From NCBI RefSeq assembly GCF_900141855.1, contig NZ_FQYU01000007.1, positions 1 to 64,000 of the forward strand: a DNA stretch of 64,000 bases. The letters are read 5' to 3'. The translations under genes were made by a program, and so were the position numbers. The notes under the pieces were generated by a model that worked only from the letters and a program-made list of their open reading frames with translations, was not told the origin of the DNA and did no database searches. The DNA comes from Pseudozobellia thermophila (GTDB taxonomy: Bacteria > Bacteroidota > Bacteroidia > Flavobacteriales > Flavobacteriaceae). Shown in pieces: positions 220 through 21,572 of the stretch. Every line of letters starts with the position of its first letter. Positions within the stretch are counted from its first letter, which is position 1.

Positions 220-286
220 AATCTCGCACTTGCCATAGCCAGGGCCGTATGCCACGCAACTACTCATAGCCGTCTGGCCGTTGTAA
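220..286 (+). repeat. Cassette-boundary repeat ending in GTTGTAA
   Basis: The sequence shares the blocks CCATAGCC, ATGCCACGCAACT and CATAGCCG...CCGTTGTAA with the boundary at 3404-3487. It ends in GTTGTAA at 280-286, about 27 bp before the first array gene. The shared blocks occur in the same order at both places, so this is a copy of the same boundary element. It resembles the right half of an integron attC site (a GTT core after a foldable arm), but the consensus GTTRRRY is not matched exactly. Confidence 0.5.
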
Positions 287-313
287 ACAACAAACATTAA
301 TCTCCTTCATTAA

Positions 314-829
314 ATGAGTTTTAAAGAAGTAAAAATGAATCAAAAAGAATTAAAAAAAATCTTTTATAAATGGATTAGTTCAATATTTGGAACGCTTCTG
401 TTTGGTTTTATATTTTCTTTCATTTTTTACCTCGTTTATGATAGTCATTCCAAACCTTTTGACATAGGTACCTTGATATTTTTAATAGGTCTTGGATTTT
501 TTCTTTTAATGGGTCTATTAAATCTCTTAGGATTACTTTTTAGTCCTAACAGTATAAGAAGAGATCTTAGTCAAAAGAAGAAAATAATAACTCAACTTAA
601 AATTGAAGATAAAAAGTTGACTAGAAAAGCTAATTCGTCTATTATTTCGGGATATAGTATCTATTTCAATGACAATGAATTTTTAACTACTTATGAGGTT
701 AGTAAAAATACTTTTGAAAAAGTAAACATTGGAGATGAAATTTATCTAGAATGTTCGAAATTCGGAAAGTGGATTATTGATATTCGATGGAATTCTGAAA
801 GTATAGAAAATAGGAGCTATGTAAAATAA
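314..829 (+). CDS. Small membrane protein of unknown function
   Basis: I do not recognise this 171-residue protein. Residues about 20-45 and 52-75 are strongly hydrophobic and form two predicted transmembrane helices. A basic stretch follows (RRDLSQKKKIIT) and then a soluble C-terminal domain of about 90 residues with alternating beta-like character, including GDEIYLECSKFGKW. A second in-frame ATG at 335 could be the true start; nothing in the sequence decides between them. The gene is AT-rich, follows the boundary repeat at 220-286 by 27 bp, and is followed after 36 bp by another orphan membrane protein, so the two probably travel together. Confidence 0.6.
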   Translation: MSFKEVKMNQKELKKIFYKWISSIFGTLLFGFIFSFIFYLVYDSHSKPFDIGTLIFLIGLGFFLLMGLLNLLGLLFSPNSIRRDLSQKKKIITQLKIEDKKLTRKANSSIISGYSIYFNDNEFLTTYEVSKNTFEKVNIGDEIYLECSKFGKWIIDIRWNSESIENRSYVK

Positions 830-865
830 CTGTTTACCACTCAACCTCTAAACACCTATAGAATA

Positions 866-1933
866 GTGACTAGACTAAGAATTGGATATAGAAGTATTTT
901 TAATAAAAAATACGAAATTGAACTGTTTGACTTTTTAATTGGGAATACAGATCAATTCAACATACCATATAATGGTCTTGATTTATGGAACAGTAAGGAG
1001 TCGGAAACAAAAGTTCTTCAAGTTGAAGAACGAATTGAGTATTTTCATTTTATGTACATACCCGTTTTTCCTGTCACCCATGTTTGGACTTTAAGAAAGG
1101 AAGATGGTAAATTATACAGTTTGGAATCGGTAAAATATAAAATTGAAAGTAGGGTGAAAAAATCACGCTACCCTATTTACACTTTTATGCTCCCGTTGCT
1201 GGTTTTACTTTCAATTTCAATTTATATACTCAGCGTATATGGTAAAAAACACCTTCGAGCCTATCGACAAGACAAAAAGAAGCAAATTACCAAGGAATTA
1301 CTTTTAAGCAAATTGGATAGTGCCGAACCACCTTTTTACATTGTGCTTGCAAAAGACGGTTTATCTAAAAATACACTTCAAAGAGTGGATTCTATGGTGG
1401 ACCAAACTTATTTCATTAGCAAACTACCCTTAAAAATTGACACTTTCGAATATGGCACCTTAGACTATACTTATTACAGTGCTTTAGAAAAGTATAGGTT
1501 AATTCAAACACAGGTTTCAAAGGATTCCCTCTACTCCTTGGTATACGGCAATTCATACTTACACCTTGATAACGAAATAAAGAAGGTTCTTTCTGCCAAG
1601 GAATTAGAAACCCCAAAGCTTGAAATCAGCTTTAATGACCAAGGGCTTGAAATTAAAAATCTAGGTAAGCCAATTACATTTATAAATTTTACCGACAACA
1701 GTCCTGAAAAAGGTCTTTGGAAATTTGAGCCAAACCTTTACTTAGATACAAATAAAAGTATCCTTGGGATGTATTCCCAAAAAAATGTTAAGGCCAAGAA
1801 TAATGAAGAAATCAGGCTCACCCTAACTTTTGATGATGGCGAGGAGTTTATCGAATATGAAGTGAGTGGAACATATACAGACATAGGGGGGAGAAAATCG
1901 TTTGTCGAAAACCAAATAAATCGAGTAGAATAA
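866..1933 (+). CDS. Single-pass membrane protein of unknown function
   Basis: This 355-residue protein begins with GTG. Residues 1-100 are soluble and include a region rich in aromatics (FHFMYIPVFPVTHVWTL) that resembles small phospholipid- or membrane-associated modules. One clear transmembrane helix lies near residues 105-125. The C-terminal 230 residues are extracytoplasmic or cytoplasmic and end in a beta-rich part. No family motif was recognised. It sits 36 bp after the 171-aa membrane protein and is the last gene before the first full intergenic module. Its stop codon is followed directly by CGG, giving TAACGG, the same junction seen at other cassette ends. Confidence 0.6.
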   Translation: MTRLRIGYRSIFNKKYEIELFDFLIGNTDQFNIPYNGLDLWNSKESETKVLQVEERIEYFHFMYIPVFPVTHVWTLRKEDGKLYSLESVKYKIESRVKKSRYPIYTFMLPLLVLLSISIYILSVYGKKHLRAYRQDKKKQITKELLLSKLDSAEPPFYIVLAKDGLSKNTLQRVDSMVDQTYFISKLPLKIDTFEYGTLDYTYYSALEKYRLIQTQVSKDSLYSLVYGNSYLHLDNEIKKVLSAKELETPKLEISFNDQGLEIKNLGKPITFINFTDNSPEKGLWKFEPNLYLDTNKSILGMYSQKNVKAKNNEEIRLTLTFDDGEEFIEYEVSGTYTDIGGRKSFVENQINRVE

Positions 1934-1942
1934 CGGATTACG

Positions 1943-2920: not shown

Positions 2921-3214
2921 GATCAATAAGCCGTGTACAACAAAAAACACCCCTTTCACAAGCCATTGATTCGCTGTAAAAACGGATCCGTACAGGTACC
3001 CTGCCAACACCTTGTGCAACAGGGGTAGGATCCATAGCCAAACAAGCTTTTCCCCTTTACCTGGTTTGCGTATTTTCTATATCAAAAGTGGTATCCCGTA
3101 AAATTGACATACAACATAAACAGGCGCAGCCCAGACCGTATCGACTGATATACATAGGATTAAGCATTTTTTTATATTTTTAGGGCAGTACGTGAAGGTT
3201 GTATCTATTTATGT
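2921..3214. other. Non-coding spacer after the CPBP gene
   Basis: I see no gene here. The stretch contains CAAGCCATTGATTCGCTG and CACCTTGTGCAACAGGGG, loosely like the start of the A-F modules, and TTTTTTTATATTTTTAGGG near 3170. It is probably a decayed array junction. Confidence 0.4.
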
Positions 3215-3297
3215 GATGGTCGATGATACCTCCGGCCCGTAAAAAACCGGGCGGTCGAGGCCGCCGTCCCTCCCCTTTTTTCCTACCATCGACCATC
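3215..3297. repeat. Long inverted repeat with nested GC hairpins
   Basis: GATGGTCGATG (3215-3225) pairs perfectly with CATCGACCATC (3287-3297). Inside the loop are CCCG-TAAAAAAC-CGGG and GGCGG-TCGAGG-CCGCC hairpins. The whole can fold into a branched structure of about 83 bases. No coding potential was seen. It lies in the spacer before the AraC/secreted-protein cassette. Confidence 0.6.
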
Positions 3298-3403
3298 GGC
3301 CAGGCAGTACGACTGCACATTCGCCCATAAAATTTGCTATATTCAATCCTAGAAAACCCGGACGGAGCCGCTCGCGGTCGGTAGCATCGACATCACTGGC
3401 CAT

Positions 3404-3487
3404 AGCGAATGTGCGTCTAATGGCGATCCCTTGCTAAGGTATGCCTGGCATACCACGCAACTCGCCATAGCCGCCTGCCCGTTGTAA
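3404..3487. repeat. attC-like foldable boundary element ending in GTTGTAA
   Basis: A nested imperfect stem runs from 3420 to 3468. ATGGCGA (3420-3426) pairs with TCGCCAT (3462-3468), TTGC (3431-3434) with GCAA (3457-3460), and GGTATGCC (3438-3445) with GGCATACC (3447-3454), with small bulges between the blocks. GCGAATGTG at 3404 also pairs with CACATTCGC near 3316. The element ends in CCCGTTGTAA (GTTGTAA 3481-3487), 35 bp before the AraC start. Arms with bulges and a terminal GTT are what integron attC sites show. It shares ordered blocks with 220-286. Confidence 0.6.
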
Positions 3488-3522
3488 CGTATATGAAAAA
3501 CCAGTAACGGAAAAATTCAATT

Positions 3523-4392
3523 TTGCGAAAATTCATTTTTGAAAAATCAAAGTACGGCTTCGAATTGCTAATGGACTTACACAAGTTTGAAGGTAATCCT
3601 AATGTTTTCTTTGACCCCAATCCACAGATCACCGATTTTTTTGAGATCATGATTTTTGAAAAGGCGAATGGAAGCATAGAATTGAACGGGCAATTGTTGG
3701 AAATTAAGGAGAATAGCGTTTTTTTTATTTCCCCCTTCCAAAAAAAATGCTGTATGATCGACCTATCCGGCATTAAGGGTTTTCATCTTGTATTTCAGAG
3801 TGATTTTTTATCCGACTTTTTTGGCGATAAACTGTTCACCTACCGGTTACAATATTTTTATAATTCCCAGCACCCTCAATTTTTACGACTGAAAAATGAT
3901 GATTATGCTTTTATACGATCGGCATTGAACGAAATTATCGCCGAGATAAAAAACTATCAAAATGATAGTCCCCATATCTTGCGTTCCCTATTGTATTTTT
4001 CTTTGTCAAAGCTCAATCGGTTGTATTCAAAATGCTACAATATTTCACCAAGCACGCAATCGAATTCAATAATCTATAAATTTAAAGAACTACTCGAACT
4101 AAATATTCGCACCTCGCATACGGTAGAAGAATATTGCAACTTATTAAATGTAACTCGCCATCAGCTTAATGCCTTGGTCAAAGAGCATACCAGATATACA
4201 ACAAAGGAAATTATCAGCAATAGGCTACTCATTGAGATAAAAACCGAACTACGCTATTCCGATAAAACAATATCAGAAATAGCCCATGACTTAAATTTTA
4301 GTGAACCAAATAACTTGTCACGATTTTTTATGAAAATGGAGGACATGAATCCTTCCGCTTACAGAAAGATTTACCAAAATGATAGCAATTAA
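3523..4392 (+). CDS. AraC-family transcriptional regulator
   Basis: This is a 289-residue cytoplasmic regulator. Residues 1-180 form a cupin-like sensing domain. The C-terminal 100 residues carry two helix-turn-helix motifs: TVEEYCNLLNVTRHQLNALVKE, then SDKTISEIAHDLNFSEPNNLSRFFMK with the family's P-S-A-Y-R ending. The start is TTG at 3523, kept because the FEKSKYG segment before the ATG at 3571 looks like the true N-terminus of this group. It is the first gene of a two-gene cassette, with a secreted protein 65 bp downstream that it may control. Its ligand is unknown. Confidence 0.85.
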   Translation: MRKFIFEKSKYGFELLMDLHKFEGNPNVFFDPNPQITDFFEIMIFEKANGSIELNGQLLEIKENSVFFISPFQKKCCMIDLSGIKGFHLVFQSDFLSDFFGDKLFTYRLQYFYNSQHPQFLRLKNDDYAFIRSALNEIIAEIKNYQNDSPHILRSLLYFSLSKLNRLYSKCYNISPSTQSNSIIYKFKELLELNIRTSHTVEEYCNLLNVTRHQLNALVKEHTRYTTKEIISNRLLIEIKTELRYSDKTISEIAHDLNFSEPNNLSRFFMKMEDMNPSAYRKIYQNDSN

Positions 4393-4457
4393 CAATAAAG
4401 TGATACGGTAATAAGGCTATTAAATCGGATTTTTGTCCAAAACAAAGATTAAAAATC

Positions 4458-5531
4458 ATGACAAATATAATTTGTGCAATCATTGCTTTGTTGGGTTTTC
4501 AACTGGCTATTGCCCAAGGCCCTGAAATAAAAGTCGACATGGTCGCCTCGAATTGGAATGTTTCAGAAGAAACAAGGTTCGAAAAATTTGACAATAGGGA
4601 AACCTTGGTTTTAAACGGAGGAAGGATTACGGTCAAAGATCAAAAATTTGCAAACGGCACCATAGAGGTGGAAGTATATGCAAACACAATCAGAAGTTTT
4701 GCCGGTATTACTTTTAGAAAGCAAAACAACGATATGGAAGAAGTATATATGCGAATGCATAAATCGAACCAAGTTGATGCCGTTCAGTATACACCCATAT
4801 TTAACAATGAGTCGAATTGGCAATTATATAGAGAAAAACAAGCAAGGGTTTCATTTAAGAAAACAGGTTGGAACAGCTTACGAATCGAAGTAAACAACCA
4901 AAGTGCCGAGGTTTTTGTAAACGATAAAAAAGTCATGACAATTGACAAACTAAGAACAGAACATAATACTGGGGAAATTGGGCTTTTTGCCTTGTTCCCA
5001 AATCGATTCTCAAACTTTAGATTTACACCCAAAGAGGCCGTAGAAAGTACCAAAAAAGACAGCATTGCCCCTGTTGACCCTGCAATTATTACAAAATGGG
5101 AAATAACGAAATCAAAACCCTACAAGGCCGAAGAGATACACTATGAAAATTTTTTAGAGGAAGAATACATTACCGTTGAAACTGAGGCGACAGGTCTTTT
5201 ACCTATTTCCAAATACATAAAAAAGTCATCTTCCGGCAACTTCGAACAGAATGAAGAAGACTATATCGTAGCATCAACTACGGTACATTCCGATAATGAT
5301 GAAACAAAACTTTTCTCATTTGATTATAGTGACAGAATAATAGTCTATTTAAACGGGAAAGTCCTTTTTAAAGGCAATAATACCTTTAGGGCAAAAGGGA
5401 TTCAGTACATGGGACATATTGATATCAATACCAATAAATTATACCTGCCCCTTGAAAAAGGAGTAAACAACATTCATTGTGTTGTTATAGATAAGGCGAA
5501 CGGGTGGGGCTTAATTGCCAAATTGGAATAA
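4458..5531 (+). CDS. Secreted protein with a concanavalin A-like/DUF1080-type domain
   Basis: The 357-residue protein starts with a signal peptide (hydrophobic core IICAIIALLGFQLAIAQ, cleavage after about residue 20). Residues 25-195 look like a LamG/3-keto-disaccharide hydrolase-type beta-sandwich: FANGTIEVEVYANTI, then FAGITFRKQ, then WNSLRIEVNNQSAEVFVNDKK, and GEIGLFALF. The C-terminal 150 residues form a second beta-rich domain resembling a jelly roll. It should be periplasmic or outer-membrane associated and bind or act on carbohydrate, although no catalytic residues were identified. It follows the AraC gene and is closed by module B. Confidence 0.65.
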   Translation: MTNIICAIIALLGFQLAIAQGPEIKVDMVASNWNVSEETRFEKFDNRETLVLNGGRITVKDQKFANGTIEVEVYANTIRSFAGITFRKQNNDMEEVYMRMHKSNQVDAVQYTPIFNNESNWQLYREKQARVSFKKTGWNSLRIEVNNQSAEVFVNDKKVMTIDKLRTEHNTGEIGLFALFPNRFSNFRFTPKEAVESTKKDSIAPVDPAIITKWEITKSKPYKAEEIHYENFLEEEYITVETEATGLLPISKYIKKSSSGNFEQNEEDYIVASTTVHSDNDETKLFSFDYSDRIIVYLNGKVLFKGNNTFRAKGIQYMGHIDINTNKLYLPLEKGVNNIHCVVIDKANGWGLIAKLE

Positions 5532-5548
5532 AAATTCGCCTTACAACA

Positions 5549-5640
5549 AAAGTAAGCCCTGCACAAGTCCTTGCACAGCGAAAAAAACACCTTTTTTAAG
5601 CCCTTTTTAGGGGCTTTTTGTTTTTAGGCCAGTCTTTGTG
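5549..5640 (+). repeat. Intergenic module, copy B (short form)
   Basis: It contains AGTAAGCCCTGCACAAGTCC, TTGCACAGCG, the terminator and TTTTTAGGCCAGTCTTTG, which match copies A and E closely. The right part of the module (CGATCGGCAAG and the ACTTGTACC hairpin) is missing. The sequence runs straight into the promoter of the RibD_C/ArsR operon, so this copy is truncated or that operon entered inside it. Confidence 0.75.
5598..5625 (+). terminator. Rho-independent terminator in module B
   Basis: AAGCCC-TTTTTAG-GGGCTT forms a perfect 6-bp stem followed by TTTTGTTTTT. It lies 67 bp after the stop at 5531 and ends the AraC/secreted-protein transcript. Confidence 0.8.
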
Positions 5641-5737: not shown

Positions 5738-5784
5738 TTTGAGAAACCGATTGGTTTCATATATATTTGCAACTGATTGGTTTC
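5738..5784 (+). promoter_or_regulatory. Promoter with embedded operator for the RibD_C-ArsR-SRPBCC operon
   Basis: A Bacteroidota-type -7 element TATATTTG lies at 5762-5769 and a -33 TTTG at 5738-5741, 20 bp apart. Between them sits the palindrome GAAACCGATTGGTTTC (5743-5758, 6-bp perfect arms). A second, partial copy AACTGATTGGTTTC follows at 5771-5784 over the likely transcription start. The gene starts at 5798. An operator between and just after the promoter elements fits repression by the ArsR protein encoded second in the operon. Confidence 0.75.
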
Positions 5785-5797
5785 GTATTTTAGAAAA

Positions 5798-6364
5798 ATG
5801 AGAAAATTAAAATTACAGGTCCAAACGACCATAGATGGTTTTATTTCAGGTCAAAATGGGGAAATGGATTGGATGGAGTTTCCTTGGACCGATGACATTA
5901 CCAATTATGTTCGAGAAATTACCGAACCGATAGACACAATTGTTCTAGGTAGAAAATTGGCGGAAGGATTTATTCCACATTGGGCAAATGTTGCCAAAGA
6001 CCCCGACAATCCAGAGTATGAAGGCGGGGTTAAATATGCTTCAACCCAAAAAATCGTATTTACCAAAACACTTGACAAATCAATTTGGGAAAACACTGAA
6101 ATTGCCAAAGGCGACCTGGTCGAAGAAATTACCAATTTAAAGCATAGGCCAGGCAAAGACATTATTGCTTATGGTGGTGGTGCATTCGTTTCCGCACTCA
6201 TCAAAAACAAGCTTATTGACGAGTTGCATTTGTTTGTAAACCCTGCTGCTATCGGAAGCGGAATGCCCATTTTTAAAGAGTTGACCGAGATGCAAAAATT
6301 TAATCTCGTTGATGTGCAAAAATTTGAATGCAACATTATTGCCATGTTGTATAAACCCGAATAA
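5798..6364 (+). CDS. RibD C-terminal/dihydrofolate reductase-like NADPH oxidoreductase
   Basis: The 188-residue protein begins LKLQVQTTIDGFISG, the usual first strand and Asp-Gly turn of the RibD_C (DHFR-like) family. It continues with TIVLGRKLAEGF and the nucleotide-binding block IIAYGGGAFVSALIKNKLIDEL. The family reduces pteridine- or riboflavin-type substrates with NADPH, but many stand-alone members have no known substrate. The TTG at 5777 is in frame but lies in the operator, so ATG 5798 is the start. The gene is followed by the ArsR gene after 2 bp and forms an operon with it. Confidence 0.85.
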   Translation: MRKLKLQVQTTIDGFISGQNGEMDWMEFPWTDDITNYVREITEPIDTIVLGRKLAEGFIPHWANVAKDPDNPEYEGGVKYASTQKIVFTKTLDKSIWENTEIAKGDLVEEITNLKHRPGKDIIAYGGGAFVSALIKNKLIDELHLFVNPAAIGSGMPIFKELTEMQKFNLVDVQKFECNIIAMLYKPE

Positions 6365-6366
6365 GT

Positions 6367-6687
6367 ATGCGTAGAGATGTTTTTCAAGCAATTGCAGACC
6401 CAACAAGACGAGCCATAATAATGCTTTTGGCCGTTGGTGCAATGACCCCAAATGCCATAGCCGATCATTTTGATTCAAGCAGACAAGCTGTTTCAAAACA
6501 TTTGCGAATACTTACAGAATGTGAAATAATCAAACAGGAGCGACAAGGCAGGGAAATTCATTATCACTTAAATGCTGATAAAATGAAGGATGTAGAAAGA
6601 TGGTTGGAGCAATTTAAAGCGCTAATGGACAAACGCTTTGACCAATTGGACACCGTTTTAGAACAATTGAAATCGAAAGGAAAATGA
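6367..6687 (+). CDS. ArsR-family winged-helix repressor
   Basis: The 106-residue protein has the ArsR layout: FQAIADPTRRAIIMLL, the recognition helix region DHFDSSRQAVSKHLRILTEC, and a beta-wing (EIIKQERQGREIHYHL). It has no Cys pair for metal sensing, so it belongs to the metal-independent group often found upstream of SRPBCC (AHSA1) genes. It probably binds the GAAACC-N4-GGTTTC operator at 5743-5758 and represses its own operon. The stop overlaps the next start (ATGA at 6684). Confidence 0.9.
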   Translation: MRRDVFQAIADPTRRAIIMLLAVGAMTPNAIADHFDSSRQAVSKHLRILTECEIIKQERQGREIHYHLNADKMKDVERWLEQFKALMDKRFDQLDTVLEQLKSKGK

Positions 6688-7664
6688 ACCCAAACTTAAA
6701 ATTTGACTTCGTAGTCGATAAGGACAAAAACACAATTAATGTGGAACGCGAGTTTGCCGCAAACCTTGAATTGGTTTGGGAAGCGTGGACAAATCCCGAA
6801 ATTCTTGACCTGTGGTGGGCACCTAAACCCTATAAAACAAGAACAAAATCAATGGATTTTCGCGAGGGCGGAATGTGGCTTTACGAAATGTATAATACCG
6901 AAGGTGAAAACCCGCAAGAATGTCATTGGTGCAAAAATGATTACATCAAAATTGTAAATCAATCCATGTTTTCGGGATTAGATGCCTTCTGTGATGAAAA
7001 CGGAACAGTTAACCCAGAAATGCCTAGAACCCAATGGACAAATAAGTTCAATGAATATGGAGAGAAAACCCTTGTGACCATTACAGCCAAGTACGAGAGC
7101 CTTGGTGACTTGGAAAAAATTATCGCAATAGGCTTTAAAGAAGGTTTTACCATGGCTATGGAAAATCTGGACCAATACATTGAAGCACAATTTAAACTGC
7201 GCAATCAAAATAAAACCAACAATAGGCCAAGAGTAACGACCTACTTAAACTTCGCAGGTAATACAGAAGAAGCTTTCAAATTTTATAAATCTGTTTTCAA
7301 AACTGAATTTATAGGTAAAGGCATTGAACGTTTTGAAGATGTGCCTGCAAGTACCGAAAATTGGCCTCCCATTGCCGATAACGTAAAAAAAATGGTTTTA
7401 CACGTTGAATTGCCCATAGTTGGTGGGCATATATTAATGGGTACGGACGCACCAAAGGAAATGGGCTTTGCATTGACAAGTGGAAACAATATGCATATTT
7501 GCCTAGAACCCGCAACAAGGGAAGAAGCCGACCGGCTATTTATTGAACTTTCTGTAGATGGCAACATTACAATGCCAATGGCAGATATGTTTTTTGGTGC
7601 TTACTTCGGAGAATTTACAGATAAGTTTGGTATCAACTGGATGATCAATTACATAAACAAATAA
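6684..7664 (+). CDS. SRPBCC (AHSA1-like) and VOC/PhnB-like fusion protein
   Basis: The protein has 326 residues in two domains. Residues about 1-175 are an AHSA1/SRPBCC domain: REFAANLELVWEAWTNPE, then WWAPKPYKT and FREGGMWLYEM, ending in GFTMAMENLDQYIE. Residues about 182-325 are a PhnB-type VOC domain: VTTYLNFAGNTEEAFKFYKS, HVELPIVGGHILMGTDAP and GAYFGEFTDKFGINWMINY. The two domains are usually separate genes that co-occur next to ArsR repressors, so this is a natural fusion of a common neighbour pair. SRPBCC domains bind hydrophobic ligands in a cavity; VOC domains handle small electrophiles or resistance functions. The substrate is unknown. Confidence 0.87.
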   Translation: MNPNLKFDFVVDKDKNTINVEREFAANLELVWEAWTNPEILDLWWAPKPYKTRTKSMDFREGGMWLYEMYNTEGENPQECHWCKNDYIKIVNQSMFSGLDAFCDENGTVNPEMPRTQWTNKFNEYGEKTLVTITAKYESLGDLEKIIAIGFKEGFTMAMENLDQYIEAQFKLRNQNKTNNRPRVTTYLNFAGNTEEAFKFYKSVFKTEFIGKGIERFEDVPASTENWPPIADNVKKMVLHVELPIVGGHILMGTDAPKEMGFALTSGNNMHICLEPATREEADRLFIELSVDGNITMPMADMFFGAYFGEFTDKFGINWMINYINK

Positions 7665-7799: not shown

Positions 7800-7830
7800 A
7801 AGGTGGTTTTGAGACAGACTGCCGTTGTAA
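7800..7830 (+). repeat. Cassette-boundary repeat ending in GTTGTAA
   Basis: GACAGACTGCCGTTGTAA ends in GTTGTAA at 7824-7830, as at 280-286 and 3481-3487. CAGACAGACTGC is also found at 11046 in another boundary. The preceding spacer (7665-7799) starts TAACGACAAAAAGCCCTTG after the SRPBCC-VOC stop and contains ATCACA-AATTG-TGTGAT near 7769, a 6-bp inverted repeat. No gene lies between 7665 and 7864. Confidence 0.45.
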
Positions 7831-7864
7831 AGCATTAAAGCATAATTCCAAAATTTAGAGAATA

Positions 7865-13695: not shown

Positions 13696-13710
13696 AAAGC
13701 CTTGGGTAAC

Positions 13711-14031
13711 ACCGGCAAGCCCTGTACAAGTCCTTGAACAGTGAAAAAACACTTTTTATAAGCCCTTTTTAGTTTTTTTTGTTTTTAGGCCGGTCTTTGC
13801 AACTTGATCTTTGAACGGTCAAAAAGGGCGTAGAGCATGCGGAGCAGGACCTTTTCGCCCCTTTTTAAGGTACCGAGTGCCCCCGCCCCGCTCTTGGGGC
13901 GTTTTTCCGTAAACTTTAGGTATTCCTGCCCGTGCCGTTCAGGCGGGTTTTAGGTTGTAGGCGACGATCCATCGCCCGATCGGCAAGTATGCCAAAGCTC
14001 TTTTTTATATCTTGTACAACGGGCACGCTGT
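13711..14031 (+). repeat. Intergenic module, copy E (full length)
   Basis: This is the most complete copy beside A and C. It has GGCAAGCCCTGTACAAGTCC, TTGAACAGTG, AAGCCCTTTTTAG followed by a long T-run (stem partner lost), GGCCGGTCTTTGC, CTTGATCTTTGAACGGTC and CAGGACCTTTTCGCCCC. Then come GTGCCCCCGCCCCGCTC, GGTATTCCTGCCCGTGCCG, TTCAGGCGGGTTTTAGG, GTAGGCGACGATCCATCGCC and CGATCGGCAAG, ending in a T-run and CTTGTACAACGGGCACG. Combining it with A and C gives the consensus unit of about 320 bp. No gene lies in 13696-14084. Confidence 0.82.
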
Positions 14032-14084
14032 GTTGGGATTAATTTGAAAAAAAAACACAATCAACAACTTAGTATTTTAAACCC

Positions 14085-15074
14085 ATGAAATACTTTTCCG
14101 TAAACCTATATAGAAAAATGCTTGATTGTGCCATTGAGGAAGGCCTCTCCAGAGAGAGTCTTATGGATTTAACAACCCCCATTAACGCTTTGGATTCTTT
14201 ACAAGTCGTTTCGGCTGAGGAGTTCCTAACCTTACATGAATTACTTGCCGATAAACTTGGGCACGGTTTTGCCGTAAGAGTAGGCCAAAAAATGGTAATC
14301 GAAGATTATGGCGTTTTAGGACTTTCTTGGCGCACATGCTCAACAGTTGGGGAGATTTTTGAACGTAGCGAACGCTACTTCAAACTATTATCCAACACCT
14401 TTGATTGGCAAATTAAGAAGGAAGGAAGCATTTCACATATAGTACTCAATCGTGAAGCACATCGAAAAGGAATGGAACTATCGACCGAGGCAAGTCTTTC
14501 AGCAACAGTAGTCGTACTCCAAGCCATGTCCGAAAAAGACATTTCCCCCATTCAAGTAAGTTTCAAACATAAAGAGCCCAAAGATCTCACTAGCCATAAA
14601 GCAGCATTTAATTGTCCTATTTTATTTGACCGACCACAATACTCAATCAGTTACAAAACAGCCGATTTAAATTTAAGAACCGCCAAGGCAGATGCCAGCA
14701 TCAACAGGTATTTACTACAACAAGTTGATGAGAAGGCCAAAGGCATAAAAATTCCTGGCAATAAGTTTGTTCGTGATGTTGAAGCACTTATAAAAGATGC
14801 GCTTCCAACAGGCATTCCAAGCATACATTATATCAGTGACCTTGCGGCTATGAGCAATCGAACATTGACCCGCAGACTTTCCGAAGCTGGTGTTACCTAT
14901 CGTGATTTGGTTAAAAAAACCCAAGAAAAAATCGCAAAAGAAATGCTACGCAAAAACACTGTGAGTATAGGCGAGATTGCGTTCTTAACAGGTTTTTCAG
15001 AACAAAGTGCCTTTAATCGTGCTTTTAAAAAATGGACTGACCTCACCCCATCTGAATTCAGAAAAAACAATTAG
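14085..15074 (+). CDS. AraC-family regulator with arabinose-binding-type N-domain
   Basis: The 329-residue regulator differs from the other AraC proteins here. Residues 15-200 match the PF12625-type (OruR/ArgR-like) sensing domain, with LTLHELLADKLGHGFAVRVG, EDYGVLGLSWRTCSTVGE and VSFKHKEPKD. Residues about 230-328 are the AraC DNA-binding domain: IHYISDLAAMSNRTLTRRLS, then VSIGEIAFLTGFSEQSAFNR and the T-P-S-E-F-R end. The ligand is unknown. It starts a long co-directional block (14085-20065) and may govern the NmrA-like oxidoreductase gene set that follows after 227 bp. Confidence 0.87.
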   Translation: MKYFSVNLYRKMLDCAIEEGLSRESLMDLTTPINALDSLQVVSAEEFLTLHELLADKLGHGFAVRVGQKMVIEDYGVLGLSWRTCSTVGEIFERSERYFKLLSNTFDWQIKKEGSISHIVLNREAHRKGMELSTEASLSATVVVLQAMSEKDISPIQVSFKHKEPKDLTSHKAAFNCPILFDRPQYSISYKTADLNLRTAKADASINRYLLQQVDEKAKGIKIPGNKFVRDVEALIKDALPTGIPSIHYISDLAAMSNRTLTRRLSEAGVTYRDLVKKTQEKIAKEMLRKNTVSIGEIAFLTGFSEQSAFNRAFKKWTDLTPSEFRKNN

Positions 15075-15301
15075 AATGCTCTTTTTGGCGTAAACTGTCA
15101 AAATCTTGTCTTTAAGTGTCAAAAAAACCATTTGATCGCTTCACACCTTTGTATCATCAAATTGACTACTCGATTATAGATAAAGACATCAATCACTTTA
15201 GCGGCCGTGTCATGGATAACCAATAAACAGTAATGCTGGCAAAGGGTTATCCAAAATACTGAATCGAGCCATAGAAATTACAAATCAAAAAACGAACAGT
15301 C

Positions 15302-15703
15302 ATGAAACAATTAAGAGCTATTGGTATTGGCGTTATTATCTGGATCATTGGGGTCAGTCTTTATACACTTTCCTTTTACATCCAAGTTTTACAAAATGCG
15401 GAACAACAAGCAAATATGCTGCTTTTTATTTCAGTCATACCATTGGTCTGGTATGGGGCAAGACTATACTACAAAAAAGAAACGAACACACATGGATATT
15501 GGGTTGGGCAAACCTTTTTTTTAACCGCAACAGCCTTGGATGCTATAATAACGGTTCCTGTTTTTGTTATCCCAAATGGAGGCTCCTATTATCAATTTTT
15601 CACGGATTTAGGATTTTGGCTTATAGGCTTTGAATTCTTAGGCATAACAGTACTCTATTGGTATATCAAGGTAGAAATCAATAAACAAAACCAAATTACA
15701 TAA
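15302..15703 (+). CDS. Four-helix integral membrane protein
   Basis: The 133-residue protein has four hydrophobic helices, at about residues 6-28, 37-53, 67-89 and 102-124. Its first helix and the YTLSFYIQVLQNAEQQAN loop resemble the small DUF5367-type membrane proteins, but I cannot confirm that. The gene starts at ATG 15302, 227 bp after the AraC gene, and lies 12 bp before the NmrA-like gene, with which it should be co-transcribed. Confidence 0.65.
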   Translation: MKQLRAIGIGVIIWIIGVSLYTLSFYIQVLQNAEQQANMLLFISVIPLVWYGARLYYKKETNTHGYWVGQTFFLTATALDAIITVPVFVIPNGGSYYQFFTDLGFWLIGFEFLGITVLYWYIKVEINKQNQIT

Positions 15704-15715
15704 AACGCATATATC

Positions 15716-16537
15716 ATGAAACAAAACATTTTAGTTATCGGAGGTACAGGAAAAACAGGTCGTCGGGTTGCAAAAAAATTAAAAGAATCTGGCCACAATG
15801 TGCGCATTGTTGGTAGAAAAACAAACCCGGTATTTGATTGGGAAAATCCTGAAACCTACAATGCTGCTTTAAAAGATATGGATAGAGCCTACATCGTATA
15901 TTATCCTGATTTAGCTGTCCCTGGAGCCAGAGATGCCATTGGCAAACTGGTTGAAAAAGCTATAAAGGCAGGATTGGATAAAGTCGTTTTACTATCAGGA
16001 AAGGGAGAAACTGAAGCAGAAGCTTGCGAGCAAATCGTGGCAAATTCCGGATTAAATTATACACTGGTTAGAGCATCATGGTTTAACCAAAACTTTAGTG
16101 AAGGCGCCTTTTTGGAATTTGTGCGGCAAGGTACCGTGGCCCTGCCAATGCCAGAGGCTGAGATTCCTTTTGTGGATGCCGATGATATTGCAGATGTGGT
16201 TTCAAAAGTACTGATGGATGATACTTTCAACGGGAAAACCATAACCGTAACAGGACCTCAAAAAAGTACCTTTAAGGAAGTGACCGGTATCATGGCCGAA
16301 GCCATAGATAAACCCATTCAATTTGTACCTATTTCCATTGATGAGTTTAAGGAAAGTATGCGAAAAGCCGGCTTGCCCAATACTTACGTCTGGCTCTTCG
16401 GTTATTTGTTCAAAGAAGTATTAGGCAACCCAGACAACCAAGAAGTTTCCAATGATGTTGCCGTAGTGTTGGGTAGGCCCGCGAAAGATTTTGAAACGTA
16501 TGCTAAGGAAACTGCGGCAACTGGTATTTGGGGTTAG
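15716..16537 (+). CDS. NmrA-like NAD(P)-binding protein
   Basis: The 273-residue protein opens with a Rossmann fold, NILVIGGTGKTGRRVAKKL (G-G-T-G-K-T-G), and IVGRK at the end of beta-2 for NADP preference. It continues with KAIKAGLDKVVLLSGKGE, LVRASWFNQNF and IPFVDADDIADVVSKVL, all usual for the NmrA/atypical SDR family (NAD(P)H-sensing regulators and isoflavone-reductase-like enzymes). No Tyr-x3-Lys catalytic pair is evident, as is normal for NmrA. It is the core of a small operon with membrane proteins on both sides (12 and 15 bp spacing). Confidence 0.88.
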   Translation: MKQNILVIGGTGKTGRRVAKKLKESGHNVRIVGRKTNPVFDWENPETYNAALKDMDRAYIVYYPDLAVPGARDAIGKLVEKAIKAGLDKVVLLSGKGETEAEACEQIVANSGLNYTLVRASWFNQNFSEGAFLEFVRQGTVALPMPEAEIPFVDADDIADVVSKVLMDDTFNGKTITVTGPQKSTFKEVTGIMAEAIDKPIQFVPISIDEFKESMRKAGLPNTYVWLFGYLFKEVLGNPDNQEVSNDVAVVLGRPAKDFETYAKETAATGIWG

Positions 16538-16552
16538 CAAAAAAGAATCGAA

Positions 16553-16969
16553 ATGATATTTAAAAAAAGTACAATTACATTCGTCATTCTCTTGTATGCT
16601 CTAGCTGTACCTTTTTTAGAAATTAATGACACTCATGTATTTAACCCTGACTGGACACCACATGCAAAAATTCATGAAGTATGGCAACTCATCACCAATT
16701 CGGCAATAGGAGTTTTATGTTTATGGTTGCTTTGGGCCAAAAAAGAGAACAAGTTAAGCTCACTATTGAGCATGTTAGTAACTGGTGGGTTTTTGTTGGC
16801 TTACTTATTACAGGATTTGTATGGCGGCTCAATGAAATATCTAGACGGAAGTGAAAAAACAATTTTAGGTCTAAACATAGGAGTTTTGGGATTCGGTCTG
16901 GGTTTCACATTATTAGTGATCGTCCATTTTTATGGTTTTGGTGATACCGGTAAAGCATCTAAACACTAA
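16553..16969 (+). CDS. Four-helix integral membrane protein
   Basis: This 138-residue protein has hydrophobic helices near residues 8-20, 45-62, 72-90 and 105-128. It carries the loop NPDWTPHAKIHEVWQ, in which Trp and two His face the same side, perhaps a ligand or metal site. I could not name the family. It lies 15 bp after the NmrA-like gene and 2 bp before the serine hydrolase gene, which implies co-transcription. Confidence 0.65.
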   Translation: MIFKKSTITFVILLYALAVPFLEINDTHVFNPDWTPHAKIHEVWQLITNSAIGVLCLWLLWAKKENKLSSLLSMLVTGGFLLAYLLQDLYGGSMKYLDGSEKTILGLNIGVLGFGLGFTLLVIVHFYGFGDTGKASKH

Positions 16970-16971
16970 AA

Positions 16972-18663
16972 ATGAATATGAAAACAACTTTTCAATTCAT
17001 AAGGTTCTTACTGCTTATTTTAAATGCCGTTACCATACATGCCCAAAACAATAGTGGACCAATCAACATCCATCACATAACAACGAAAATCGATAGCCTT
17101 TTAAGTAATTATAATGAGAATGAACCGGGCGTTGCCATTGGTCTTGTAAAAAACAATCAGTTGATCTATGAAAAGTACTTTGGATTGGCCAATCTTGACT
17201 ATGGGACACCGATTCACAAAGGGACTTCCTTTCATGTGGCTTCGGTTTCAAAACAGTTTACCGCATTTGCCATTTTCTTACTTGAAGACGAAGGAAAACT
17301 GTCTTTGGAGGATGATATTGGAATCCATCTTCCTGAGATGCACGAATTTGAGCACAAAATTACCATTGGCCATTTGCTAAATCACACAAGTGGGCTAAAA
17401 GACAAGTATAACCTATTACGCCTCTCTGGTTGGACGCTAGATGATGTCATTACCAATGAACAGGTGTTGAAGATTATTTTTAATCAAGAGACCTTAAATT
17501 TCAAACCCAACGAAAATCATATGTATAGCAATACCAACTATGTATTGTTGGCAGAAATCGTAGCTAGGGTATCGAAGATGTCCTTTGCCGAGTTTACGCA
17601 TAAACACATTTTTGAACCCCTAAGGATGTATGATTCCAAATTTGTAGATCAAAAAGGACAGGTTGTTAAAAATAAAAGCCTTTCCTATTTCAAAGTCGAT
17701 TCAATATACGTTGAAGATCTATTTAATAACTTCAGTGTTGGTGCTACCAACCTTAACACGACAATTACAGATTTGAGTAAATGGCTTATTAATTATGACA
17801 CAAAAAAAGTCGGTAGCCCAGCTATCTTTAAAAAAATGCAAACCTTACGGCATTTGAACAATGGAGAAACCTACGGCTATGCAAATGGTTTGTTCATCAA
17901 CACCTATAAAGGGTTCAAACGTATTGAACACAGTGGACAGGACGCCAGCTATCAGTCTTATTTGGCAAGATTTCCAGAACTGAACTTGAGTGTGATCTTT
18001 ACAAATACGAATGGTGAAATCAATGGCTCCAGAATGGTGTATGATATCATGGACATTTGTCTAGAACCCTATCTTAAAAATAAAAAATCAATTTCATCAC
18101 CCAAAAAACTATTAACCCACAAAAAACCTATTAAGAAAGGAACGGCATATTTAAAACAATTTGAGGGCCATTATTGGGATGAAGATGATACATATTCACG
18201 CCACATTAAAGTTGAAAATGACACCTTGCGTTTTATTACCAAGAATGGCAACACTGCCTTAGTGCCAGTAGGCGAACATGCTTTTGAAATGGATATTCAT
18301 GACTATGTGGGTATCTCCTTTGCAAACAACCAGATGATTATGACACTGGGTGATGGCTATCAAATCATTTCAGAAAAATATACTCCTGCACAATACAATG
18401 CAACTACTCTTGAAGAATTTACCGGAAGATATTACAGCTCTGAATTGAATGCCTACTACTCATTTTATGTGAAAGAAAATCAATTGGTTGCAAAACACAC
18501 AAGACTGGGTGATTTCAAATTAAATGCTATTAAAAATGACTATTTCATTGGTAATAAAGGGTCATTTCTAAAGGTGGTTTTTATAAGAAACTCTGCTAAT
18601 GATATTATTGGATTTGAGGTATCCAGCAGTAGGGCGAAAAATGTATCATTCGTAAAAATATAA
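16972..18663 (+). CDS. Class C beta-lactamase-like serine hydrolase, secreted
   Basis: The 563-residue protein has an N-terminal signal peptide (FIRFLLLILNAVTIHAQ) and a beta-lactamase/transpeptidase-like domain over residues about 35-370. The catalytic S91-V-S-K94 and Y185-S-N187 motifs are seen, and HSGQDASYQSYLARFP takes the place of the K-T-G strand. Residues 380-560 form an accessory lipocalin-like domain common in flavobacterial members. Such enzymes are usually esterases or peptidases, less often lactamases. It acts in the periplasm. A second in-frame ATG is at 16978. It ends 2 bp before a PD40 lipoprotein gene. Confidence 0.88.
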   Translation: MNMKTTFQFIRFLLLILNAVTIHAQNNSGPINIHHITTKIDSLLSNYNENEPGVAIGLVKNNQLIYEKYFGLANLDYGTPIHKGTSFHVASVSKQFTAFAIFLLEDEGKLSLEDDIGIHLPEMHEFEHKITIGHLLNHTSGLKDKYNLLRLSGWTLDDVITNEQVLKIIFNQETLNFKPNENHMYSNTNYVLLAEIVARVSKMSFAEFTHKHIFEPLRMYDSKFVDQKGQVVKNKSLSYFKVDSIYVEDLFNNFSVGATNLNTTITDLSKWLINYDTKKVGSPAIFKKMQTLRHLNNGETYGYANGLFINTYKGFKRIEHSGQDASYQSYLARFPELNLSVIFTNTNGEINGSRMVYDIMDICLEPYLKNKKSISSPKKLLTHKKPIKKGTAYLKQFEGHYWDEDDTYSRHIKVENDTLRFITKNGNTALVPVGEHAFEMDIHDYVGISFANNQMIMTLGDGYQIISEKYTPAQYNATTLEEFTGRYYSSELNAYYSFYVKENQLVAKHTRLGDFKLNAIKNDYFIGNKGSFLKVVFIRNSANDIIGFEVSSSRAKNVSFVKI

Positions 18664-18665
18664 TT

Positions 18666-19613
18666 ATGAAAGGTGTTAACGTTACTTTTCTATTCATAGT
18701 CCTTCATTTGTTTTCTTGCAGTAAAGAAACAGAATCAAATATAGTGCTGTTAGATCCTGACATTCCAACTGACACGCCTTTGGTTTTTGGGGAAGGGATT
18801 ATTTCAACTGAGAGCTACGAGTTTGCAATTACCTTTACTCCAGAAATGGACGAACTTTATTTTACACGGAGAAAACCTGGAGAAGACAATACAATTTATT
18901 GCATGCAATTAGTTGACGATAAGTGGTCCAGCCCAAAACCTGCATTTTTTACAGCAACCAAAGGGTGGGATTTCGAACCTCATATCAACCCAAAAGGGGA
19001 TAAACTGTATTTTGGAAGTACACGACCTCTAAACGATACACCTAAACCACCAGGACTTCACCAATGGTATAGTAAGAGGGAAGCAAAGGGCTGGAGCACG
19101 CCAATACCGTTGCAGAAACCATTTGTAGATAGAACCATAATCATGTACTTGACCTCTACTGAAGAGGGTAATTTATATTTCACCGCTGGAGAGAAAGGAG
19201 ATGCTCCAGAAGATTGGGTTATTTACAAGTCAATCAAAGAGGATGGTCAATACAAAAGTATTGATAGAATGGGAAAGGAAATCAATACTGCTGCCAAATG
19301 GGTAGCCCATTCATACATAGCTCCAAACGAAAGCTATATGATTTATGATTTTAAGAGTGATTTAGGTTATGGTGAAAGTGATTTGTACATCAGTTTTAAT
19401 AAAAATGAAAAATGGTCAAGGCCCTTTAACATGGGGCCCAAGATAAACACAGATCAAACTGAAATGGCTGCAAGTGTATCGCCCGATGGCAAGTATTTGT
19501 TTTTCCATAGAGGCGGAGAAAATGAGGGTAATATTTATTGGGTGGGTTTTAGACCGATAAAAGAGGAAATGGAAAAGAATTTTAACCAACACCAATACTT
19601 GAAAGAACCATGA
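18666..19613 (+). CDS. PD40-repeat (WD40-like) lipoprotein
   Basis: The 315-residue protein has a lipoprotein signal with the lipobox L-F-S-C (Cys near residue 18). A TolB-like PD40 beta-propeller follows, with repeats such as FAITFTPEMDELYFTRRKPG, HINPKGDKLYFGSTRP and SVSPDGKYLFFHRG. The family is typical of outer-membrane or periplasmic binding scaffolds in Bacteroidota. The stop overlaps the GNAT start by 4 bases, so the last three genes of the block are tightly coupled. Confidence 0.85.
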   Translation: MKGVNVTFLFIVLHLFSCSKETESNIVLLDPDIPTDTPLVFGEGIISTESYEFAITFTPEMDELYFTRRKPGEDNTIYCMQLVDDKWSSPKPAFFTATKGWDFEPHINPKGDKLYFGSTRPLNDTPKPPGLHQWYSKREAKGWSTPIPLQKPFVDRTIIMYLTSTEEGNLYFTAGEKGDAPEDWVIYKSIKEDGQYKSIDRMGKEINTAAKWVAHSYIAPNESYMIYDFKSDLGYGESDLYISFNKNEKWSRPFNMGPKINTDQTEMAASVSPDGKYLFFHRGGENEGNIYWVGFRPIKEEMEKNFNQHQYLKEP

Positions 19614-20065
19614 AATATAGAAAAGCAACAACCAATGACGTATTTACCATTGTAGAAATGATTGCTGACGATTCCTTGGGCCGTAAACGGGAAAACCTTA
19701 CCATCCCATTGGCAAGATCCTATTATGACGCCTTTGAGCGAATCGATTCTGACCCAAACCAAGAACTGATGGTGGTCGAAAATGGAGATGGACAGATTAT
19801 CGCTGTTTTTCAAATGACGTTTATCCCTTATTTAACATACCAAGGAGGTATTCGTGCACAAATTGAAGGAGTACGCGTGCATAAGAAACATCGGGGACTT
19901 GGTATTGGGAAAGCCATATTTCAATGGGCTATCCAAAGAGCGAAGGAACGCAAAGCTCATTTGTTGCAGTTGACCACCGACAAGAAACGTCCCGACGCCA
20001 TTCGCTTTTATGAATCGCTTGGATTCAAGGCCACACATCAAGGCATGAAAATGCATTTGAATTAG
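19610..20065 (+). CDS. GNAT-family N-acetyltransferase
   Basis: The 151-residue protein shows the GNAT order: KYRKATTNDVFTIVEMI, AVFQMTFIPYLTYQGG, the motif-A strand AQIEGVRVHKKHRGLGIGKA with the acetyl-CoA pyrophosphate loop (R-G-L-G-I-G-K-A), and RFYESLGFKATHQGM at the end. The acceptor substrate is unknown. The overlapping start (19610) couples it to the PD40 lipoprotein. It is the last gene before module F and closes the longest block of the array. Confidence 0.92.
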   Translation: MKYRKATTNDVFTIVEMIADDSLGRKRENLTIPLARSYYDAFERIDSDPNQELMVVENGDGQIIAVFQMTFIPYLTYQGGIRAQIEGVRVHKKHRGLGIGKAIFQWAIQRAKERKAHLLQLTTDKKRPDAIRFYESLGFKATHQGMKMHLN

Positions 20066-20087
20066 ATTAAAATACCAGTGCCAACAC

Positions 20088-20256
20088 GGGTAACCAAGGG
20101 ACAAGTCCATAATGAACAAAATTGCGCCCAGTTTTAAGCCCTTTTTAGGGCTTTTTCCCGATTACCGCCCCTACCCTGAAATCGCATGCCAGGATAACTA
20201 TCGATAGACCGTGGGCGAAACGTACTTTTTTGTTAACTTGTGCAGCGGTACACGCC
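20088..20256 (+). repeat. Intergenic module, copy F (shortened, diverged)
   Basis: It contains GGGTAACCAAGGGACAAGTCC, ATAATGAACAAAATTGCG, the terminator, CGCCCCTACCC, then a T-run with TTAACTTGTGCAGCGGTACA. It is the most diverged of the six copies but keeps the order leader, terminator, T-run, TTGTGC/GTACACG hairpin. No gene lies in 20066-20359. Confidence 0.65.
20136..20156 (+). terminator. Rho-independent terminator in module F
   Basis: AAGCCC-TTTTTA-GGGCTT forms a perfect 6-bp stem followed by TTTCCC. It lies 70 bp after the GNAT stop and ends the 14085-20065 block. Confidence 0.75.
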
Positions 20257-20359
20257 GTATAGATAATGGCTTGGTGCCCCTAGCCTATAGATCCACACAG
20301 ATTTCGTATTCGGTATGCATGTGCTACATTGGCCAGGACGGAATCATTAAAAATGAAGA

Positions 20360-21193
20360 ATGAAATTAAAAGTATTGGCGTTTCTGTTTGCGATTACCAT
20401 CATGGCCTGCAGGGCACAGGAAGCAAGTACGGGACCACAGCCTCCCGCTGAAACCGGTGAAAAATTCAAAGTAGGAATAGCAGGCTATACCTTCGTAAAA
20501 TTCGACCTCGATAAAACACTTGAAACAATGAAAGCGCTCGATGTACATTATTTATGCATCAAGGATTTTCATTTGCCCATGACGAGTACCGATGAGGAAA
20601 TTGCCGCCTTTCATGAAAAATTGAAAGCCAGCCATGTTACCGGTTATGCCGTTGGCCCAATTTATATGAAAAGTAAAAAGGCAGTCGACCGGGCTTTTGA
20701 ATATGCGAAAAGGGTTGGGGTAAAATTGATCGTCGGCGTACCCAACGTTGAGCTGCTTCCTTATGTGGACAAAAAAGTAAAAGAGTACGATTTTAAATTT
20801 GCGATTCATTTACACGGGCCGGATATTAAAATCTTTCCAGATGCCGAAGATGTCTGGAACCACACCAAAGACCTCGACCCGAGGATTGGAATGTGCTTGG
20901 ACATCGGTCACGACACACGCAACGGCAAAGACCCCGTTGCCGACCTGAAAAAATACCATACCCGCGTTTTCGATATGCACATTAAGGATGTTACGGCCCC
21001 TACTAAATCGGGGTATTCACTCGAAGTAGGCCGTGGTATTATCGACTTTCCCGCACTGGTGAATATGATCAGAAAAGTTGGTTACACAGGGGTTTGCAGT
21101 ATGGAACATGAAAGAAACCAAGACAATCCCTTTATGGGACTTGCCGAATCTGTCGGTTATTTCAGGGCCGTGATCGAAACCACGAAGAAATAG
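20360..21193 (+). CDS. Sugar phosphate isomerase/epimerase-family (TIM barrel) lipoprotein
   Basis: The 277-residue protein starts with a lipoprotein signal (FLFAITIMAC, lipobox Cys near residue 17). It continues with the AP-endonuclease 2/xylose isomerase-like TIM barrel: VGIAGYTFVKFDLDKTLETM, KFAIHLHGPDIK, IGMCLDIGHDTRNGKDP, FDMHIKDVT and GVCSMEHERN. His, Asp and Glu residues at strand ends form the usual metal site. The family isomerises or epimerises free sugars; here it is exported. Codon and base composition are closer to the core chromosome than to the AT-rich array genes. Confidence 0.88.
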   Translation: MKLKVLAFLFAITIMACRAQEASTGPQPPAETGEKFKVGIAGYTFVKFDLDKTLETMKALDVHYLCIKDFHLPMTSTDEEIAAFHEKLKASHVTGYAVGPIYMKSKKAVDRAFEYAKRVGVKLIVGVPNVELLPYVDKKVKEYDFKFAIHLHGPDIKIFPDAEDVWNHTKDLDPRIGMCLDIGHDTRNGKDPVADLKKYHTRVFDMHIKDVTAPTKSGYSLEVGRGIIDFPALVNMIRKVGYTGVCSMEHERNQDNPFMGLAESVGYFRAVIETTKK

Positions 21194-21572
21194 GAACCAA
21201 AATGACTTTGTTTTCAAAAGGTCGGGACTCTTAAACCCTTGCCCCCCTTAGTCCTTGCCCATAACAGCGGATAAAAAGCCGTTTCGGCCACTCCACGGAG
21301 GGGAAAAGGGGAAAGTCCGAAGCCCGGCCCGCATCCACAGTATCAAAAAAAAACCATCACCTTATTCAATACCCAAGGAAGTTGGGGCCAGACCGGCCTT
21401 GGCCATTATTGAAAAAATCAGGGTCGGGCTTAAGGCCCGATGGCCTTGCAAAAAGTTGGCATTTATCCGCTATATTTGGTAGCGGCCAGGGGAATGGCCC
21501 TTGCAAATGCTTGCAAAAGCCCAGCCGAAACCCAGGGCGTAATGTATAACGATACTTTCGAAAACAAGGAAA
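21194..21572. other. Non-coding spacer with a wide inverted repeat
   Basis: No gene was recognised. AGCGGATAAA (21266-21275) pairs with TTTATCCGCT (21462-21471). Inside lie further G+C-rich inverted elements, and the block ends CCAGGGCGTAATGTATAACG shortly before the DinB gene, similar in position to the GTTGTAACGTATATG end at 3481-3495. It may be the last, diverged boundary of the array. Confidence 0.45.

Follow-up and report, generated by a model that had tools for sequence, protein, structure and literature searches.

What keeps a long run of unrelated genes on one strand in Pseudozobellia thermophila, with a few recurring repeat types between them? We analyzed a window of 64,000 nucleotides (nt) from this genome (contig NZ_FQYU01000007.1, positions 1 to 64,000; G000:C31:1-64000 in our numbering). 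Its base 1 coincides with the contig end, where the leftward sequence was lost to assembly, and the genome is a 5.04 Mb draft in 36 contigs. Between 314 and 21193, every sizeable gene is encoded on the plus strand, and the guanine-cytosine (GC) content per kb is 0.30-0.42 up to 20 kb and 0.39-0.52 beyond, as a first-pass annotation had described when it proposed AT-rich, same-strand blocks split by few repeat types. We propose, with a probability of about 0.88, that the window holds the partly degraded distal end of a Flavobacteriaceae-type chromosomal integron, which would be headed by a tyrosine recombinase of the type encoded on contig C28 of the same genome and would work like an integron. 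Architecture, self-complementary cassette ends, attC pairing, single orientation, precise recurrence of cassettes and one apparent transfer between orders are demonstrated by comparison.

The repeats lead to the recombinase. A 321-bp stretch of the window (3180-3500) has 29 matches in its own genome, all on contigs C8, C10, C14, C28, C30, C31, C33 and C34; these eight array contigs would join into one or a few arrays. The copy on C28 (1325-1613, minus strand) lies about 130 bp upstream of a divergently oriented gene for a 355-aa tyrosine recombinase (G000:C28:1743-2810), which is likely the integrase of the arrays. The first-pass annotation had seen an array without a visible integrase and had suggested searching the genome for a tyrosine recombinase near further repeat copies. 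The window indeed contains none; its absence there reflects, at least in part, the contig break, and the suggested search leads to this gene beside the repeats on C28.

The C28 recombinase belongs to a lineage apart from IntI. Against TIGR02249 it scored 198.5 bits in two pieces (cut-off 265), and its alignment with IntI4 shows a gap at the ~42-residue IntI-specific insert, the additional domain found in tyrosine recombinases of canonical integrons. Counted with loose motif patterns, the spacing from KDR to HxLRH was 64-65 residues in 81 of 83 clade members, 63-65 in 22 of 22 related recombinases and 105-107 in 30 of 31 IntI, with the other two members and one IntI not placeable; a spacing of 112 in one of two Xer-like proteins of the own genome was taken as a false motif match. 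In phylogenetic trees, the clade sharing an N-terminal extension was fully supported with IntI separate, and two array-linked groups jointly excluded IntI (support 91/88), the root and sister relation being left open where long branches meet. The nearest sequences were the archaeal XerC-like 4a8e (E 1.5e-42) and NF040815 (209 bits; cut-off 220). The N-terminal extension of ~85 residues had no Pfam match, and the AlphaFold model of the integrase was too loose for domain arguments (mean predicted local distance difference test 75.7, predicted template modeling score 0.56); the best Foldseek match of this low-confidence model was IntI4 2a3v (template modeling score 0.47). A plasmid search matched 592 records, none reaching 60% identity.

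These data bear on the best-surviving alternative, in which the window derives from a canonical integron that has lost its IntI, or whose IntI is missing from the assembly, and the C28 recombinase is a bystander. Draft assembly leaves room for a missing gene, and of 395 genomes from the phylum, broadly defined, 105 have a canonical IntI above cut-off. However, TIGR02249 at E 1e-50 had no match in the own genome or the same-family genomes listed, and of the 108 genomes with a TIGR02249 match, one belongs to the class of P. thermophila and none to its family. In many genera, attI and arrays lie next to a recombinase that is not IntI, and our attC model, described below, matched no site around 30 canonical IntI genes (108 kb). 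We consider this alternative very unlikely.

Relatives of the C28 recombinase are widely distributed. Matches at E 1e-60 or better occurred in 39 of 149 relatives (own genome counted), and a GTDB genome scan yielded at least 526 confirmed recombinase relatives; the 80 kept include Maribacter, Winogradskyella, Flavobacterium, Chryseobacterium, Sphingobacterium, Chitinophagaceae and Bacteroidales. At these 80 loci, contig ends lie less than 10 kb upstream in 52 cases, compared with 25 on the other side, as repeats would cause. Seven genomes besides the own one share the N-terminal extension at 48-72% identity (one of the seven with two stops), and in all seven the recombinase is divergent from its array, which ranges from one site, where a contig end is near, to eleven or more. 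A more distant eighth genome, G046 (40% identity), had no clear array within the 6.4 kb examined. A second, related recombinase group, without a match to the N-terminal extension, precedes the array by at most ~2 kb on the same strand in six of eight genomes chosen for their arrays (G013, G023, G039 (twice), G060, G067 and G086). Loci of this in-line group in complete genomes (L211-L213, L209, L214-L217, L221-L223) head arrays of dozens of cassettes.

As in canonical integrons, an attI-like site lies beside the putative integrase gene, with insertion between G and TT. Window positions 3138-3483 (346 bp) match the leader plus first unit on C28 at 89%. The own genome holds three copies of this attI-like leader: on C28, in the window at 3138-3214 without a recombinase gene (78 bp at 78% to the C28 leader alone), and on C14; tblastn found no recombinase remnant in C31. 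Among the 79 loci whose leader is 160 nt or longer, 50 have a motif like GCGTATATTTGDGWG that ends right at G^TT[AG]; at other Gs, such a motif was counted 66 times in 5005 positions. In 41 of 80 loci, a first cassette whose ends are self-complementary over 9 bp or more begins less than 420 bp away, mostly at the attI motif, and some candidates starting away from it look like chance. In a Winogradskyella pair (L115/L117) and three Chryseobacterium/Kaistella pairs, flank and recombinase are common up to the G^TT of attI and then diverge. A strict test of where leader homology breaks, with only 10 pairs, gave four ends within 5 nt of G^TT, two running 6 and 10 nt past it, and four breaking earlier. 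Some members of the N-extended clade, from Flavobacterium and others (L155, L168, L173 and L176), carry the array on the other side of the recombinase.

The boxes of attC sites are usually named R'', L'', L' and R'. In the relatives, attC-like sites follow a fixed order: ACAAC, a short spacer, the left arm, ~80 nt, the right arm, a longer spacer (e.g. GAGACC) and G^TT[A/G]. In the seven N-extended relatives, the sites are ~144 or 205 bp long and separate short genes, most cassettes holding a single gene. The bases following the G of a cassette are complementary to its own R'' box, typically over 10 bases, one mismatch and more pairs, as expected of cassettes that circularize through their ends. 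We measured this complementarity in 44 cassettes chosen by motif alone, with own arrays and failed pairings counted in. The mean contiguous match past AAC was 4.48, compared with 0.89 (standard deviation 0.17) after permutation (maximum 1.66 of 5000). Cassette starts are, as in canonical integrons, complementary to R'' of their own attC.

The attC-like sites also appear to fold. In 25 aligned sites, the proposed pairing was formed in 88.4% of cells versus 71.7% (standard deviation 1.3) in shuffles, and 68 double changes were counted versus 24.1 in shuffles and at most 18 in slid controls, covariation-type counts of this kind being inflated by kinship among the sequences. The bottom strands of four sites fold with z -3.3 to -3.9. 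The canonical arrangement, in which R''/L'' and L'/R' boxes fold into a hairpin, is clear in relatives and on other own contigs, and weak in the window. As the first-pass annotation had pointed out, the canonical cores RYYYAAC and GTTRRRY are not matched: GTT[AG] is present, and RRY is often missing (GTTGTAA, GTTACCC, GTTGCCA).

We then used an attC model, R1, based on 25 hand-picked sites (141-147 nt, ten loci) out of 90 distinct ones; two L143 sites were omitted from 27 selected, and the list of 90 also contains chance pairs. In the own genome (E <=0.1), 39 of 39 matches fell on the eight array contigs, among the best 150 of 1051 candidates scored. The array strand carried 46 of 47 matches at eight array loci, and 276 of 277 matches in 298 kb of relatives' arrays kept to one strand per array, which is the single cassette orientation of canonical integrons. 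The strand count of self-complementary pair chains was uninformative because such pairs are strand-symmetric. The eight array-chosen genomes had 26-115 R1 matches each, and at E 0.001 or better R1 matched 96 of 149 relatives, namely each of the 39 recombinase carriers plus 57 of the 110 others.

A further alternative, slightly less probable again, holds that the repeats are ordinary terminators or sequences like miniature inverted-repeat transposable elements (MITEs) between operons, unlinked to gene turnover. One inserted element, D1, does carry a terminator-like hairpin, and the attC-like sites of the window are weak. However, terminators explain neither the complementarity of ends within a cassette nor repeats ending at G^TT, and the model matches given above are confined to array contigs. 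The first-pass annotation had named invariant blocks, or terminators spread over the whole chromosome, as outcomes that would speak against a cassette array; the cassettes of relatives instead recur precisely between boundaries.

Comparison of arrays points to mobile units bounded by G^TT, as in canonical integrons. In six genomes, we collected 65 pairs of near-identical stretches (>=95% identity, >=250 bp), mostly from two G013 arrays. In 60 of the 65 pairs, both copies had their right end at G^TT; this held for the left end in 33 and for both sides in 31, and random positions gave 0.43 on average (maximum 3). A 1681-bp stretch is identical in two arrays ~500 kb apart, with different neighbours. 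Between genomes, Chryseobacterium lacus (L143, within the array) and Sphingobacterium lumbrici (L162, at attI) share a ~1060-bp cassette that hardly differs between them. Its identity begins exactly at G^TT, the upstream sequences are unrelated and there are few internal mismatches; the right end runs on because the following cassettes happen to start with the same 7 bases. This pattern reads as one cassette transfer between orders. Duplication of cassettes by homologous recombination between similar attC sites, with no site-specific recombinase, is the least probable alternative: an array may contain nearly identical attC sites, and 32 of the 65 left ends lie off G^TT because similarity continues into the preceding attC, but this accounts neither for the right ends nor for an L143/L162 identity that starts exactly at G^TT behind unrelated sequence.

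Several observations weigh against an integron headed by a C28-type recombinase. The missing IntI-specific domain is described as defining and necessary for integron recombination in an excerpt of a paper on archaeal integrons (PMC9668308). Within the window, a single attC-like site is clear, and the 9-mer end pairs are by themselves not significant (6 in the 23-kb array versus 4 and 3 in two 20-kb controls); it is the position of these pairs at gene ends, not their number, that counts. Two of five pairing measures did not exceed shuffles (double-change pairs 9 versus 7.7; pair types 14 versus 13.6). The attI motif is missing in 29 of 79 leaders, and these loci include Flavobacterium and others with the array on the opposite side of the recombinase. 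L143/L162 is the sole clean cross-genome cassette among 35 matches, none of which had both ends within 8 nt of G^TT in both copies (left 1, right 3). The 57 relatives with attC matches and without the recombinase at E 1e-60 belong here as well, as do G058 and G070, whose arrays (26 and 40 attC matches) are accompanied by just weak, Xer-like recombinase matches; these two arrays are CALIN-like (clusters of attC sites lacking integron-integrases) or headed by another integrase.

In the mechanism that we propose, the recombinase would have two kinds of substrate: an attI-like site (GCGTATATTTGDGWG^TT[A/G] or a variant of it), and attC-like sites in which the bottom strand would fold into a long imperfect hairpin. 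Exchange between G and TT of the core would allow circular cassettes to be inserted, excised and shuffled. We infer that the C28-type recombinase catalyzes this exchange and that it uses the folded bottom strand of attC. Since its lineage lacks the IntI insert, attC must be recognized in another way, and the ~85-residue N-terminal extension perhaps serves this recognition.

The system shares much with the sedentary chromosomal integrons of the Vibrio type: an attI next to a tyrosine recombinase, long one-strand arrays, self-complementary cassette ends, a G^TT core, foldable attC sites and cassettes without an open reading frame (ORF). It differs from them in that the Bacteroidota integrase is of another lineage without the IntI insert, the attC core is mostly GTTRNNN rather than GTTRRRY, and R1 stays silent around the 30 IntI genes. 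Like a CALIN, the window piece has cassettes and no integrase nearby, but a likely integrase exists on C28, and its absence from the window is due at least in part to a break in the assembly. XerA, XerC and XerD are closest to the C28 recombinase by sequence, whereas the C28 type has the N-terminal extension, an attI, cassette arrays and a clade of its own. In-line integrases are known from Treponema integrons, and the related group without the extension likewise precedes its array on the same strand; unlike those integrases, it lacks the IntI insert, as its spacing indicates. A wholly new kind of system was considered and set aside, the parts being those of an integron. We read the system as a class of Bacteroidota integrons that has an integrase lineage of its own.

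Beyond this locus, it seems fairly probable that Bacteroidota have their own phylum-wide integron class, with arrays of up to more than 100 cassettes, exchange between orders and a tyrosine-recombinase lineage that would handle folded attC without the insert, either of independent origin or as a pre-insert sister branch of IntI. Standard integron searches would miss such a class because they require IntI and an attC model built on other phyla. A literature search by title and abstract start, with preprints outside it, found no description of such a system. An excerpt of the IntegronFinder 2.0 paper reports integrons as near absent from Bacteroidota, with In0 elements and one complete case, Salinibacter ruber (PMC9024848). 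According to part of another study, IntegronFinder 2.0 found no integron in a Tenacibaculum, of the same family by context (PMC10013915), which fits tool blindness or real absence. Excerpts of three further papers weigh against novelty: a survey of tyrosine recombinases describes the insert as essential yet not fully conserved in the integron-like subgroup (PMC8138268), Bacteroidota are named among integron-bearing phyla (PMC8618304), and intI genes are reported in the Bacteroidetes/Chlorobi group (PMC2426708).

Integrons are the best known natural gene-capture platform. If our reading is true, a large pool of cassettes has stayed hidden in a major phylum; one could then test how integrons arose and whether they need the IntI-specific domain, and genetic engineering would gain a second integrase-attC pair. 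The reading also explains the poor assembly of such genomes at array loci.

The window stretch itself is the worn, integrase-less far end of an array, with inserted elements and an ORF-less cassette. Both halves of the first-pass conclusion hold up in this light: the stretch may count as a diverged CALIN, defined by two or more attC sites with none next to an integron integrase, since it has one clear and several weak attC-like sites, and it is part of a distinct cassette-exchange system in that the likely integrase on C28 is not a canonical IntI. By the R1 model, the only clear site is 10966-11108 (27 bits, E <0.001), and weak ones lie at 2202, 3382, 12017 and 12939; an Rfam scan of window positions 1-24000 matched no family. 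Genes are separated by a 71-nt repeat (six copies) and further families. The seed CTTGCACAGCGAAAAA (<=3 mismatches) occurs 5 times in the 64 kb, always on the plus strand and inside the array (expected 0.79), a count reached in 1 of 100 shuffles. Of the repeats taken as boundaries in the first-pass annotation, GTTGTRA stands at 280, 3481, 7824 and 11096 on the plus strand, the 7-mer by itself not being significant (5 further occurrences on the opposite strand of the window), while the 71-nt family, D1, lies inside or beside boundary sites and is not itself the boundary. All five TAAC gene ends that it had listed are present, but they do not represent the core. At preserved R'' boxes, the AAC ends 11-16 nt past the stop codon (5547, 8424, 13710). 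Self-complementary ends of 9 bp are kept in the window cassettes 7824-8424 and 13018-13710, and of 7 bp in 3481-5547.

Two kinds of extra sequence, a 267-bp unit and D1, explain the repeat modules of the earlier annotation. The 267-bp unit begins with GATGGTCGATG, and the complement of that start recurs inside the unit in 18 of the 22 starts found. On C28 a copy separates attI from the first gene, and copies also follow many cassettes. Most copies end as an attC-like arm at G^TT, and the unit is probably an ORF-less cassette. ORF-less hairpin units are also placed first at attI in Winogradskyella flava and Euzebyella. Among 149 genomes, with few candidates scored per genome, the unit was found in the own genome only (1 of 149). 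It has multiplied through the array, with 21 more starts on own array contigs besides window 3215-3481, and begins with a G^AT core in place of G^TT. Runs of N within its copies (L052 ~18210-18485; L055 just below 7790) mark where the draft assembly halted inside repeats. D1 is a ~290-bp MITE-like insert adjoining the R'' box, with copies also in L052, L053, L054 and L057. Insertion elements targeting attC sites are known. The insertion-element end at window 1-143, which we take to be IS110-like by motif, without Pfam support, has four copies (C31, and C34, C30 and C8 at L052, L056 and L058). Each is followed by an attC left arm, at the same spot within the arm every time, and the element behaves as if it targets the attC hairpin. 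A 92-aa piece of it on C34 had no Pfam match.

Read from the left, the window starts with this insertion-element end (1-143, minus strand), cut by the contig end and sitting in the left arm of an attC-like site; all further features are on the plus strand. The right arm of a cassette boundary (249-293), 38 bp of it at 84% to the end of the 267-bp unit, has its core G^TT after base 280 (GTTGTAA). Two cassette genes without assigned function or Pfam match (314-829 and 866-1933, together 314-1933) are followed by a D1 element of ~290 bp with its hairpin beside an R'' box (1938-2232), a weak attC-like site (2202-2293, 17 bits by R1) and a CPBP (Rce1-like) gene (2264-2920, PF02517). Behind the leader copy, the 267-bp unit (3215-3481) ends at G^TT after 3481, its 3' part (3382-3493) scoring as a weak attC at 15 bits. 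The next cassette genes (3523-5531) encode an AraC-type regulator (3523-4392) and a 3-keto-disaccharide hydrolase-like protein (4458-5531), followed by the R'' box TTACAAC (5541-5547) with a D1 piece (5541-5638) and by RibD_C, ArsR-type and AHSA1/3-dmu genes (5777-7664). The first cassette with intact ends (7824-8424) starts with GTTGTAAAG and has CTTTACAAC behind its gene (7865-8413). Positions 8418-8905 hold D1 ends (8418-8482 and 8667-8732) and a weak attC-like site, found at 8702-8905 with 25 bits in one scan and at 8712-8782 with 13 bits in another.

AhpD/CMD, DUF1348 and AraC genes (8946-10957) precede the clearest attC-like site, with its core G^TT after 11096, which is followed by a gene for an HXXEE membrane protein (11121-11681). 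D1 pieces and a weak attC-like site (12017-12158, 13 bits) occupy 11857-12158, and a DUF6090 gene (12172-12939) leads into another weak site (12939-13030, 12 bits). The second cassette with intact ends (13018-13710) has GTTACCCAA at its start and TTGGGTAAC at its end and carries a DUF1801/OmdA gene; a D1 element (13704-14045) adjoins it. From 14085 to 20062, genes follow in the order AraC regulator, DUF5367, NmrA, unassigned, serine hydrolase (PF00144), PD40 and GNAT. The last D1-type repeat (20079-20149) marks the end of array signals, and a xylose-isomerase-like gene (20360-21193) stands at the array edge, where GC content rises.

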